Part shown: positions 894 through 18,085 of the stretch, piece by piece
Position numbering within the stretch: the first letter of the stretch is position 1
Layout: each line of letters starts with the position of its first letter
DNA from: Treponema sp.
GTDB taxonomy: Bacteria > Spirochaetota > Spirochaetia > Treponematales > Treponemataceae
Direction: 5' to 3'
DNA length: 64,000 nucleotides
Assembly: GCA_024695475.1 (NCBI GenBank)
Contig: JAILIC010000002.1
Coordinates: 1 to 64,000, forward strand
Program-made: the position numbers and the translations under genes
Notes under the pieces: model-generated
Told to the model about the DNA's origin: nothing
Databases searched by the model: none
What the model saw: only the letters and a program-made list of their open reading frames with translations

Positions 894-994
894 CTACGTA
901 TTTTTATATGATCAGGCAATCCAGTTAAATGTAATCAGAGACGCCATTATGAGCGAGTAACACGAAGATTTTTGTTTAACACTATCGTTAGCTA

Positions 995-1023
995 TTGTTA
1001 ACTCAAACAGAATCTGATATAGT
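995..1023 (+). promoter_or_regulatory. Predicted sigma-70 promoter of eno
   Basis: TTGTTA and TATAGT are separated by exactly 17 bp. Transcription would start near 1030 and give a leader of about 120 nt that carries the inverted repeat described next. Nothing else upstream of the enolase start has a comparable pair of boxes. Confidence 0.6.
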
Positions 1024-1044
1024 ATTGATGTTAGCACTTACTAA

Positions 1045-2469
<1,425 letters not shown>

Positions 2470-15314: not shown

Positions 15315-15548
15315 ATGACAATTAACAAATGGTGTGCTTTTGGTCTTGGTGTTGTAGCAGGTGCAGCTGTAGTAGCAGTAGTCCGTACTCCTGCTTTCCG
15401 CAAAGCTTGCGCAGCTGTAGTTGGTAAAGGTATGCAGCTTAAAAATGATGCAGCAGCATTTGCAGAATCCGTAAAAGAAGATGCAGAAGATGTCATTGCT
15501 GAAGCAAAGTACAACCAGGCAAAAGTTGCAAAAGCACAAAAGAAATAA
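15315..15548 (+). CDS. DUF6110-like small membrane-anchored protein
   Basis: The 77-residue product has one N-terminal membrane helix with small residues (FGLGVVAGAAVVAVV), then a charged amphipathic helix ending KVAKAQKK. A single helix followed by the pattern FRKACAAVVGKGMQLKNDAAAF and an ED-rich VKEDAEDVIAEAK resembles DUF6110, a small family found beside P-type metal ATPases. TGGAGG precedes the start. The next genes are exactly such an ATPase and its HMA-like partner. A role as an accessory subunit or metal-transfer factor is an inference from that neighbourhood. Confidence 0.6.
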   Translation: MTINKWCAFGLGVVAGAAVVAVVRTPAFRKACAAVVGKGMQLKNDAAAFAESVKEDAEDVIAEAKYNQAKVAKAQKK

Positions 15549-15585
15549 AGAACATCTCTGATTACGTCTTGTTTATATATGGCAG

Positions 15586-15620
15586 CCACCTTGTCTCAGT
15601 ATAGTACAAGGTGGGTTTTC
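15586..15620 (+). terminator. Attenuator-like hairpin before the P-type ATPase
   Basis: CCACCTTGT (15586-15594) pairs with ACAAGGTGG (15606-15614) and is followed by GTTTTCC. It would reduce read-through from the small gene to the ATPase. Confidence 0.6.
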
Positions 15621-15662
15621 CATATTTCCTACCTTTAATAATTTTACTTACAGGTAACTCCT

Positions 15663-17777
15663 TTGAAAGTTTTTATCAAGCACTCATTACCAGGTCGACT
15701 TAGACTGGGATATAATAGTAATGTATTATCTTCACGACAGGCAATTCTTGCCCAAAGTCTTATTGCTGTCCAAGAAGGCATCAATGATATCCAAGTAAAT
15801 CCGCTCGTCGGATCTTTTTTAGTATATTATGATAGCAGTATAATCTCCGAAAAAGAGATTCTCAATTTATTTGCTGCCTTAACAGATAAGTATCTTAACG
15901 ACCAAAATCTTCTTGATGCAGTTGCCATCGTTCCTGAAACAGACAGTACATTTGGCATTCTATTTGAGACAGCCTTTAATGTGTTATTACGACGATTGCT
16001 TCCCTTACCCATACGTAATATTATTTTATATTCGCATATTATACCGCGTGTCGGACGAGCTTTATTAGCGCTCATGAAAGGAACCATCTTTAGCACCGAT
16101 TTGCTCGATGCAACAGCCCTAAGCGTTGCGGTGTTATCAGGTAACACGGCAACGGCAAGTTCTGTATCGCTGCTTCTTGAGATGGGAGAACAAATCGAAG
16201 GTATCACTCGCAAGCGTTCCTACAATAATCTTGCCCAAACACTGCTCATTTCAAATGAAAGTGTCCATATCCTCGTTAATGACGAAGAAAAAACAGTTCC
16301 AGCCTCTACTTTGAAAAAGGGAGATACCGTTATCGTACGTGCAGGCAGCCAAATCCCTGCTGATGGAACGGTTATCAGAGGTACTGGTATGGCAAATCAG
16401 GCCAGCATTACAGGAGAATCGTTACCAGTTGAAAAATCAGAAGGCAGTACCGTCTTTGCAGGTACCATATTAGAAGAAGGCGAAATTGTTCTCACTGTCA
16501 TTTCTACTGGAAAAGATACAAAGGTACACAATATCATATCTCTCATTGATCAGTCACAGAGCCTCAAAGCAACAGTACAAAGGCGCTCAGAAAAACTAGC
16601 AGAGCAAATTGTGCCGTTTAACTTTTTGTTGACACTCATCACTTGGCTTATAACCCGCAATGTAACCAAAACTATATCAACACTTATGGTTGATTATTCT
16701 TGTGCCATGAAATTAGCAGCTCCAATTGCAGTTCTTTCGGCCATGAAAGAAGCTGCAACATGGGGCATCTCTGTCAAAGGCGGTAAATATCTTGAAGAGG
16801 CAGCTCAAGCACAAACCATCATTTTTGATAAAACAGGTACCCTTACCTATGCTACTCCAACCTTAACTGATATCTATCCTATGAAAGGGTATACAAAAGA
16901 AGATATACTCATCATGGCAGCATGTCTGGAAGAACACTTTCCCCACCCGCTTGGACGCGCTGTTGTACAAGCAGCAGAGGAACAGCATCTCAGACACCCC
17001 GAAAACCATGCAAAAGTTGAATATATAGTTGCACATGGTATCGCATCAACATTAGATGGCAAAAAATTACGTATAGGTAGCAAACATTTTATCTTCGAGG
17101 ATGAAGGAATTCCATTTACAAACGAAATTGAAAACATTCACTCATCTTTACAAGACTCTGGCAGTTCTCTATTATACCTAGCAATAGATGGTAAGCTTGC
17201 TGGTATTCTTGCCATAGGTGATCCCGTCAGAAAAGATGCAAAAGAAGCAATTGCTACATTAAAGCGGCTTGGTATCAAAAAATGTATGATGATTACTGGT
17301 GATACCGAGGGAGCTGCAAAAAAGATAGCTACTGAAACAGGAGTTGATGCATGGCATGCACAGGCTTTACCAGAAGATAAAGTCTCGTTTGTTGAAGCAG
17401 AGCGCAAAGCCGGTAACAAAGTCATCATGATCGGAGATGGTATCAATGATGCACCTGCTCTTTCCGCAGCAACACTGGGTATTGCAATCGACGGGTGTTC
17501 TTCAATTGCTGGTGATACAGCTGATATTGTTTTATCAAAAGATGGACTTGCAGGTATAGTTGCTATCCGTCAACTAGGTATGGGATTACTTGACCGCATT
17601 AACAGAAACAATGCATTGATTATTGGAGCAAATTCAGCATTGCTGGCAGGTGGTATATTCGGTTTTATTTCGCCATCACTTGCCGCTTTACTCCATAACT
17701 CACTCACCATCGGTATCAGCCTCAGCGCCATGCAACCGGTATTACCAGAGTTTGTTACTGAAATAGAGGATCAATAA
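15663..17777 (+). CDS. P1B-type metal-transporting ATPase, atypical membrane motif
   Basis: The 704-residue pump uses ATP to move a metal ion across the cytoplasmic membrane. It has the actuator TGESLPVEK, phosphorylation DKTGTLT with Asp near 389, the P1B-specific His-Pro in HFPHPLGRAV, and GDGINDAPALSAA near 591. The membrane motif that is usually CPC, SPC or CPx reads YSCAMKLAAP with Cys near 347, so the ion-binding site differs from Cu and Zn pumps. The N-terminus (HSLPGRLRLGY) looks like an HMA fold without a CxxC. Translation starts at TTG, with CAGGT upstream. An attenuator hairpin precedes it, and the HMA-like gene follows with a 1-bp overlap. The metal is not known; Mn or Fe is possible. 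Confidence 0.9.
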   Translation: MKVFIKHSLPGRLRLGYNSNVLSSRQAILAQSLIAVQEGINDIQVNPLVGSFLVYYDSSIISEKEILNLFAALTDKYLNDQNLLDAVAIVPETDSTFGILFETAFNVLLRRLLPLPIRNIILYSHIIPRVGRALLALMKGTIFSTDLLDATALSVAVLSGNTATASSVSLLLEMGEQIEGITRKRSYNNLAQTLLISNESVHILVNDEEKTVPASTLKKGDTVIVRAGSQIPADGTVIRGTGMANQASITGESLPVEKSEGSTVFAGTILEEGEIVLTVISTGKDTKVHNIISLIDQSQSLKATVQRRSEKLAEQIVPFNFLLTLITWLITRNVTKTISTLMVDYSCAMKLAAPIAVLSAMKEAATWGISVKGGKYLEEAAQAQTIIFDKTGTLTYATPTLTDIYPMKGYTKEDILIMAACLEEHFPHPLGRAVVQAAEEQHLRHPENHAKVEYIVAHGIASTLDGKKLRIGSKHFIFEDEGIPFTNEIENIHSSLQDSGSSLLYLAIDGKLAGILAIGDPVRKDAKEAIATLKRLGIKKCMMITGDTEGAAKKIATETGVDAWHAQALPEDKVSFVEAERKAGNKVIMIGDGINDAPALSAATLGIAIDGCSSIAGDTADIVLSKDGLAGIVAIRQLGMGLLDRINRNNALIIGANSALLAGGIFGFISPSLAALLHNSLTIGISLSAMQPVLPEFVTEIEDQ

Positions 17778-18085
17778 TGATTACAAGTTTTTTTCCAGGA
17801 CGTATACGATTACGAGCTCCTATTTTTAAAGATATAGAGATAACAAATGCAGCACGGGAGATTTTAGAAACATCGCCTGCAATAACAAACGTACAACACA
17901 ATCCGACTACCGGTAGTGTACTTCTAGAATACGAAGAAGATAAGATTCCTTTTGAAAAACTGACTCCTCTCGTACCATTTCTTGAAAAACTTCGTACTAA
18001 AGCGATGTTTTATAATGAAAAAAAACGTCCAGAAATACTTACTATGTTAGATGAACTTCGCAGCATAGTACAAACCTGGAATTAA
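17777..18085 (+). CDS. HMA-like metal-associated domain protein without CxxC
   Basis: This 102-residue protein repeats the motif found at the start of the ATPase: FFPGRIRLRAPIF, then a predicted beta strand, VQHNPTTGSVLLEYEED. The ferredoxin-like HMA fold is suggested by the strand-helix-strand pattern, but the metal-binding CxxC is absent. The ATG shares its A with the ATPase stop (TAATG), so the two are translated in a coupled way and should be made in similar amounts. A separate copy of the domain, fused in one protein and free in the next, suggests a regulatory or chaperone role for the pump. Metal binding by the remaining residues is uncertain. Confidence 0.7.
   Translation: MITSFFPGRIRLRAPIFKDIEITNAAREILETSPAITNVQHNPTTGSVLLEYEEDKIPFEKLTPLVPFLEKLRTKAMFYNEKKRPEILTMLDELRSIVQTWN

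Follow-up and report, generated by a model that had tools for sequence, protein, structure and literature searches.

A three-gene cassette on the forward strand of a 64,000-nucleotide stretch of Treponema sp. DNA (NCBI GenBank assembly GCA_024695475.1, contig JAILIC010000002.1, positions 1 to 64,000; this whole stretch is called the window below) is, from our point of view, probably a fez-type gene cluster, in which a FezB-like P1B-6 ATPase would move Fe(II) into a ferrosome, with a FezA-like protein and a FezC-like protein consisting of an HMA_2 domain only as its partners. We put the probability of this reading at roughly 0.73. Ferrosomes, as reportedly described by Grant and colleagues in 2022, are iron-storing organelles with FezB as their P1B-6 ATPase, and the cluster of D. 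magneticus RS-1 is said to be fezABC. The original prediction, made from the letters of the window, had recognised a metal-ATPase cassette with two accessory proteins, all parts of which are indeed present (Table 1), and had left the ion and the accessory roles open; for these, homology now suggests Fe(II), a platform protein of the FezA type and an HMA_2-only FezC.

Results

The comparison with ferrosome systems relies on two genomes. One (G798, locus L190), which we take to be D. magneticus RS-1, encodes a DUF6110-like protein of 86 amino acids (sub-threshold, E 0.049), a pump of 743 amino acids with the motifs DFSCAIKLSAP and HN, and an HMA_2 protein of 146 amino acids. In pairwise alignments, the three window proteins match these FezA, FezB and FezC candidates at 34% over 70 columns (E 7e-10), 44% over 589 columns (E 4e-159) and 40% over the first 55 amino acids (E 5e-12), respectively. 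The other is one of six genomes (G572, G573, G575-G578) that were taken as Clostridioides from the 67-94 CW_binding_2 repeats found in each of them, and in all six of which the pump is present. For one of them (G572) the whole locus was read (L186); its pump, with DFSCALKLSIP, reaches 42% over 701 columns to the window pump and stands behind a clear DUF6110 protein. This FezA candidate matches the small window protein at 26% over 54 amino acids (pairwise E 1e-7), and no HMA_2 gene was found after the candidate pump at this locus. As a finding that would speak against it, the original prediction had named a close match to a characterised Cu or Zn pump with the same motif. Matches with nearly the same motif do exist in these two pumps, but they are candidates for the iron-storage protein FezB and not Cu or Zn pumps.

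The placement in a P1B tree, which had been proposed as a check, agrees with this comparison, as the window pump is bracketed by the two FezB candidates, whose genome identities are inferred. The tree was built with a quick method from 62 pumps, near-duplicates, short rows and many Treponema loci having been dropped beforehand. It places the window pump in a clade of 50 rows together with both FezB candidates (Shimodaira-Hasegawa-like approximate likelihood ratio test, SH-aLRT, 100) and, within it, in a subclade of 45 rows (SH-aLRT 85) that contains Clostridioides and lacks D. magneticus. Pumps of the type found in Azospirillum, Arcobacter and Vibrio form the sister clade, and the Deinococcus pumps fall within the fez clade on a long branch. 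Outside the FezB clade are the DUF1490/CtpC type (L104), the HMA_2-associated pumps of Priestia and Fusobacterium, and the pumps with CPC encoded elsewhere in the same genome as the window (L002, L003). Three of six loci found on viral contigs (L094-L096) served as outgroups; in transmembrane helix 4 (TM4) two of these pumps have CPC, whereas the third has CPG. The Priestia pump (L102, plasmid pBM400; TM4 DFICGIKLSTA) and the Fusobacterium pump (L101; TM4 DYSCGIRLSTA), both with HN in transmembrane helix 6 (TM6), represent types that fall between CtpC and FezB in this tree.

The ion site of the window pump (residues 343-354, VDYSCAMKLAAP, and HN at 678-679) had at first been called unusual, a judgement that has to be given up, because D-x-S-C in TM4 together with the TM6 HN is common to the pump family. 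D344, S346, C347, A348, N657, H678, N679 and T682 are invariant in 53 of 53 aligned pumps, an alignment that takes in proteobacterial, other bacterial and archaeal fez-type pumps and from which nine rows of the tree are omitted (Deinococcus, the CtpC type, Priestia, Fusobacterium, the three viral-contig pumps and the two CPC pumps of the same genome). Two Deinococcus pumps outside this alignment have DISCV in place of D[YF]SCA and thus keep D, S, C and HN, with V at the position of A348. In the predicted model of the window pump the helix is broken at 343-344, between helices 334-342 and 345-366. HN in TM6 has been described as a P1B6 feature (PMC9374683). Taken alone it is not specific for FezB, because the CtpC-type, Priestia and Fusobacterium pumps have it too, and D[YF]SCA as a mark of P1B-6 pumps is an observation of the present analysis, not one taken from the literature. 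The features by which Cu or Zn/Cd pumps of the P1B-1 and P1B-2 groups are recognised (CPC in TM4 and an HMA domain of the CxxC type) are both lacking in the window pump.

As to the pump gene itself, its product is a heavy-metal P1B ATPase that is matched above cut-off by both TIGR01525 (E=3.9e-148) and TIGR01512, with the catalytic DKTGT, TGES and GDGIND intact. The HMA-like, CxxC-free domain noted earlier at its N-terminus is confirmed: it opens with an Arg-rich PGRLRL and matches HMA_2 (PF19991) over residues 5-67 with E=1e-6 and 29.2 bits at a cut-off of 30, the same domain scoring 31.9 bits in a genome-wide scan. The free copy of the domain, said to be encoded with a 1-bp overlap, is equally real. 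The stop codon of the ATPase gene and the ATG of the fezC-like gene have one base in common (TAATG), and the free protein exceeds the HMA_2 cut-off (41.4 bits, E=1.8e-10). No third HMA_2 match at E <= 0.01 was obtained in the whole genome. Two further P1B pumps are encoded there (L002, L003); they are 32-34% identical to the window pump and both have CPC.

Table 1. Coordinates of the cassette, its parts and a related site in the window
Feature	Position	Strand	Remarks
fezA-like gene	15315..15548	+	77-aa protein, putative member of the DUF6110/DUF1490 (PacL) group
Intercistronic hairpin	15586..15614	+	CCACCTTGT/ACAAGGTGG, then GTTTTCC
fezB-like gene	15663..17777	+	P1B-6 ATPase, 704 aa, TTG start
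N-terminal HMA_2 domain of the pump	15675..15863	+	residues 5-67
TM4 motif	16692..16724	+	D344-Y-S-C-A-M-K-L-A-A-P354, predicted ion site
TM6 motif of P1B-6 pumps	17694..17699	+	H678-N679
Short fezC-like gene	17777..18085	+	102-aa HMA_2 protein (FFPGRIRLR)
Two copies of GTTAGYNNNNRCTAAC upstream of the enolase gene	987..1045	+	987-1002 with 1 mismatch, 1030-1045 exact

The small protein has one N-terminal hydrophobic helix (GLGVVAG), which is followed by a charged stretch rich in Ala and Glu and ends in KVAKAQKK without a His/Asp metal-binding motif. Its earlier description as DUF6110-like is borne out by position and by relatives' profiles, whereas the Pfam match itself lies below the cut-off (DUF6110, E=0.019). 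The best Pfam match, DUF1490, is sub-threshold as well (E=0.0038, 17.7 bits, cut-off 28.4), so that the putative membership in the DUF6110/DUF1490 group rests on position and on profiles from relatives. A Pfam scan for DUF6110 in 100 genomes of the family found 18 proteins, nine of them above cut-off, and missed the window's own; the model being too narrow for the group, the loci themselves served to build the profiles that we used instead. According to Boudehen et al. (2022; PMC9374683), a DUF6110 gene typically accompanies that of a P1B6 pump.

The hairpin behind the small gene, taken for an attenuator in the original prediction, is real in terms of stability (15575-15630, z=-5.05, 0 of 200 shuffles as stable). 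It is intercistronic and trailed by just GTTTTCC, with no strong U-run, and a terminator rule made no call; our guess is a possible leaky terminator by which more FezA-like than FezB-like protein would be made. As a conserved element it was rejected, since spacers of at least 60 nucleotides between fezA and fezB occur in just 11 of 66 Treponemataceae loci (55 have shorter ones, some genomes being counted twice) and the hairpins in the long spacers differ from each other. It is hence not a feature of the family.

The model of the free 102-residue protein (predicted local distance difference test score, pLDDT, 91) consists of four strands and a helical tail, and the protein contains neither a hydrophobic stretch nor any His after residue 60. 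Set against FezC of the D. magneticus type, i.e. HMA_2 plus a cytochrome-like membrane part, it has the former and lacks the hydrophobic, His-containing part. A Foldseek search with the model returned no match at E <= 0.001; matches of the HMA type, such as MerP and CopZ, came with high probability and weak E-values. In VIA-align the top rows were RNA-polymerase subunits with Z under 6, next to ATP7B (Z 4.6) and CopZ (Z 4.4). As all these structure scores lie within the commonly seen range, it is the Pfam match on which the HMA label is based. Where an HMA_2 gene follows the pump in the fez clade, its product is as a rule of the short form except in the Desulfovibrionaceae, a family in which lengths vary.

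The pump is found at 48-66% identity in 81 of 195 Treponemataceae genomes (82 places), below which the next P1B pumps, among the matches listed, drop to 37% or less. In 149 genomes of the phylum the sole match outside the family at E <= 1e-110 was a broken pump gene (46%). An uncultured spirochaete (G327, L105/L088) carries a fez pump that is apparently split by a frame change, next to an open FezA-like gene. Around the pump, the gene order is conserved. Of 85 Treponemataceae loci, 79 have an open reading frame (ORF) for a FezA-like protein no more than 250 bp upstream and 73 an HMA_2 ORF no more than 250 bp downstream, both recognised with profiles from Treponema proteins; repeated genomes and short loci are included in these counts, and eight of the 12 loci without an HMA_2 match are short sequences with the small gene in their middle. 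All three genes are present in T. putidum (L114), T. vincentii (L139) and T. lecithinolyticum (L152).

A scan of named genomes with a pump segment, of which the best 80 of 269 relatives were used, yielded Treponema, many Clostridia, Veillonella, Peptoniphilus, Mucispirillum, Bacteroidales, Synergistota and Desulfovibrionaceae, and among the archaea Methanobrevibacter, Methanovirga and Methanocorpusculum. A FezA-like ORF within 700 bp upstream is found in 69 of these 80 loci, archaea included, and in at least six of the remaining 11 the pump lies at or very near a contig end. An HMA_2 ORF within 250 bp downstream is found in 19 of the 80. Such a downstream gene occurs in records of Treponema and other spirochaetes, in Mucispirillum, in Synergistota and in one member of the Desulfovibrionaceae. 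With the FezA-like profile, the small protein before the pump is also recovered in Azospirillum (E 9.5e-6), Vibrio (2.3e-8) and, weakly, Arcobacter (0.0024). Fez-type pumps of Bacteroidales (L138, L142, L151, L155, L157, L163, L165, L170) come mostly from rumen or gut assemblies; L138, the only one that the tree includes, is nested within Treponema sequences, a position suggestive of gene transfer.

Since sequence alone does not fix the ion, the best independent hint comes from regulation in relatives. A Fur/PerR box shared upstream of fezA was considered and rejected, none of the candidates among the matches listed being convincing, either at the window or in relatives. De novo counting in the upstream regions brought up TTAGT-N4-ACTAA and GTTAG-N6-CTAAC, each in 7 of 61 regions with 0.0 expected. 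The palindrome GTTAGYNNNNRCTAAC is found with at most one mismatch upstream of the fezA-like gene in 19 of 63 Treponemataceae regions (shuffle mean 0.12, maximum 2) and exactly in six of them (shuffle mean 0.0, maximum 0), statistics that are uncorrected for relatedness. Of the 72 other loci, two have the palindrome when an exact copy is required and eight when one mismatch is allowed (no shuffle control).

In some relatives, this palindrome is common to the cluster and to iron-transport genes. In G106, where fez and a flavodoxin gene are divergently oriented, sites occupy the interval between the two. Others precede a second feoA, enolase, and a feoA-feoB operon that is itself followed by the gene of a DtxR-type repressor. 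Flavodoxin is an iron-sparing protein. The surroundings of fez in this genome look like an iron-regulon island; the neighbours checked with Pfam include feoAB, the DtxR-type repressor, flavodoxin, enolase, a histidine-phosphatase (phosphoglycerate mutase-like), an AraC regulator and a Trep_Strep membrane protein. A 15-base form of the palindrome exceeds the reversed control in five of six relatives' genomes that were picked for having such sites (G101 is level with its control), and many of the 15-base sites lie on the fez-bearing contig (among the matches listed, in which G132 does not appear). The sequence GTTAGYNNNNRCTAA has many copies over tens of kilobases around fez in G106:C25 and G086:C12 (L233-L238), and further sites are on G095:C12, G154:C49 and G154:C13.

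Within the genome from which the window is taken, an exact GTTAGYNNNNRCTAAC (L232:204-219) precedes two feoA-like ORFs, assigned by eye, and feoB. In the window itself (987-2469), the enolase gene is preceded by the palindrome (Table 1), as it is in G106 and G086, which suggests metal control of a glycolytic gene. By rough arithmetic about 0.02 exact copies would be expected in the window; at up to two mismatches the window-wide number is 4 and not above chance (mean 7.2). Seven of 97 loci, four of them from Veillonella, have FeoB-like ORFs at E <= 1e-100 in their flanks, with two weaker matches in addition and without a control (the 97 are the 80 of the named-genome scan, 12 of Clostridioides, Desulfovibrionaceae and related genomes, and five plasmid loci). 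Among the Treponemataceae loci, flavodoxin-like ORFs are found in 11 and FeoB-like ORFs in five.

Discussion

If the cassette is a fez-type cluster, the following picture can be drawn. The FezB-like P1B-6 ATPase would use ATP to drive a divalent metal, most likely Fe(II), from the cytoplasm into a membrane-bounded store, the ferrosome, with D344, S346 and C347 of TM4 and H678 and N679 of TM6 as predicted ligands of the ion. The FezA-like protein might pack into the membrane by its helix of small residues and cluster or stabilise the pump, as PacL1 does for CtpC, and the HMA_2-only FezC-like protein could act as a cytosolic partner resembling the pump's own N-terminal domain.

Several points have to be held against this reading. 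The genomes G798 and G572 were identified by inference and not by name, the tree is a quick one with several long branches, and FezB itself has been called a putative ferrous iron transporter (PMC10979944). The similarity of the small protein is weak, staying below threshold in Pfam, and the third protein is without the half of FezC that has been described as a cytochrome. A search for a DUF4405 protein in the same genome gave none that was convincing (best E 0.31). On the side of regulation, 44 of the 63 upstream regions have no GTTAGYNNNNRCTAAC at up to one mismatch, and the second feoB locus of the same genome (L231) has none within the 4 kb read. A metal-responsive site at the window's fezA-like promoter, which the original prediction had proposed to look for, was not found, as neither a copy of GTTAGYNNNNRCTAAC (best, 4 mismatches) nor a good Fur box (10 of 14) is present there. 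Iron regulation thus appears to be supported for part of the family and stays unproven for the window copy. Finally, that Fe(II) is moved, which way it is moved, that an organelle is formed and what the accessory proteins do would for Treponema all follow from homology.

Two of these points can be put into perspective. The missing half of FezC is compatible with a ferrosome, since no adjacent HMA_2 gene was found in the Clostridioides cluster, and the DUF4405 result says little, because the model hardly recognises even the FezC candidate of D. magneticus (E 0.2). The redox step of FezC could then be either dispensable or supplied by another protein.

It is also conceivable, albeit unlikely, that the cassette forms an efflux platform similar to PacL/CtpC, in which excess Fe, Mn or Zn is exported over the cytoplasmic membrane by pumps that the small protein gathers in patches, with no storage compartment involved. 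Export and the filling of a vesicle have an identical transport topology, the promoter in the window has no recognisable iron-type operator, and DUF1490, the PacL family, is the best if sub-threshold Pfam match of the small protein; moreover, DUF6110 proteins have been treated as PacL-like and suggested to be membrane platforms for P1B6 pumps (PMC9374683, PMC13043812). Yet the score of that match falls short of its cut-off and the protein has no metal-binding tail, TM4 of the pump reads YSC (with HN present) and not CPC as kept by CtpC, and the CtpC-type pump lies outside the FezB clade. In some relatives, furthermore, the same palindrome is found at the cluster, at feoAB and at flavodoxin, from which we infer a use under iron limitation rather than under metal excess.

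That manganese, or a mixture of manganese and iron, is stored or exported seems to us even less probable. The ligand set of D, S, C, H and N does not by itself pick Fe over Mn, and the DtxR-type regulator and Feo near some relatives' clusters could respond to Mn, the DtxR family including Mn sensors (PMC4805248). On the other hand, fez in G106 has flavodoxin as its neighbour, with the shared palindromes in between, and fez systems are described as iron stores (PMC10979944, PMC12574912, PMC12016538). An orphan Cu/Zn/Cd pump whose ion site has decayed and whose HMA domain has been duplicated, to which the matches to TIGR01525 and TIGR01512 and the two HMA_2 domains might be taken to point, is very improbable, given that the supposedly decayed residues are invariant in 53 bacterial and archaeal pumps, that the catalytic motifs are intact and that the genome has separate CPC pumps.

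Going beyond the cassette in the window, we see about an even chance that Treponema, including T. putidum, T. vincentii and T. lecithinolyticum, makes ferrosomes with a simplified FezC, whose heme-binding membrane half was either lost or never present, and that in some relatives the cluster forms part of a DtxR-type iron regulon to which feoAB, flavodoxin and enolase also belong. If this were true, spirochaetes would carry iron-storage organelles, and the redox step of FezC would not have to be provided by FezC itself. An apparently odd metal pump is hereby turned into a testable prediction, namely iron storage in ferrosomes by Treponema species. The HMA_2-only FezC would further offer a natural variant for asking what the other half of FezC does, and GTTAGYNNNNRCTAAC a candidate iron operator for Treponema. 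In open-licence full texts of PubMed Central (PMC), in which the two primary ferrosome papers are not covered, no paper was found that mentions both "ferrosome" and "Treponema", and mentions of "DUF6110" are limited to two papers, those on PacL. An earlier listing of Treponema among fez carriers is possible.

Comparison with known systems

The cassette resembles the fezABC candidate of D. magneticus, in which ferrosomes accumulate (strain RS-1; PMC12748827), in that three homologous genes stand in the same order, the third overlapping the second, and in that the pumps share D[YF]SCA, HN and an Arg-rich N-terminus. The overlap is, however, 1 base in the window and 20 bases in the D. magneticus candidate, and the third proteins differ: the C-terminal part of the FezC candidate is hydrophobic, with four His located beyond residue 60, whereas the window protein ends with a helical tail. 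FezC of D. magneticus is described as a DUF4405-related protein and as a cytochrome (PMC10979944).

In C. difficile, ferrosomes need FezA and FezB, both of which are Fur-repressed (PMC12574912), the genes being CD630_05910-05920 (PMC11651100). The Clostridioides candidate shares with the window the sequence of a DUF6110 protein and then a P1B-6 pump, but its FezA candidate has 131 amino acids with a long C-terminal extension. The ferrosomes of R. palustris CGA009 derive from six fez genes, RPA2333-2338 (PMC12016538). For this six-gene type the comparison was made via look-alike operons on replicons of Azospirillum, Arcobacter and Vibrio, not via R. palustris or S. putrefaciens. Like the window, these operons encode a small YtxH/DUF6110-like protein, a pump with DYSCALK and HN, and HMA_2 proteins; unlike it, they add small membrane proteins and have their HMA_2 genes upstream of the pump.

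With PacL1-CtpC of M. tuberculosis, finally, the cassette shares a small transmembrane protein with a cytoplasmic part rich in Ala and Glu beside a P1B pump with HN (PMC9374683). PacL1, however, has a metal-binding tail, and CtpC, which has a role in zinc resistance, retains CPC in TM4; the sections of that source on which we draw mention no free HMA_2 gene (PMC9374683). Overall, known systems largely explain the cassette, and its structural variation is the HMA_2-only FezC.

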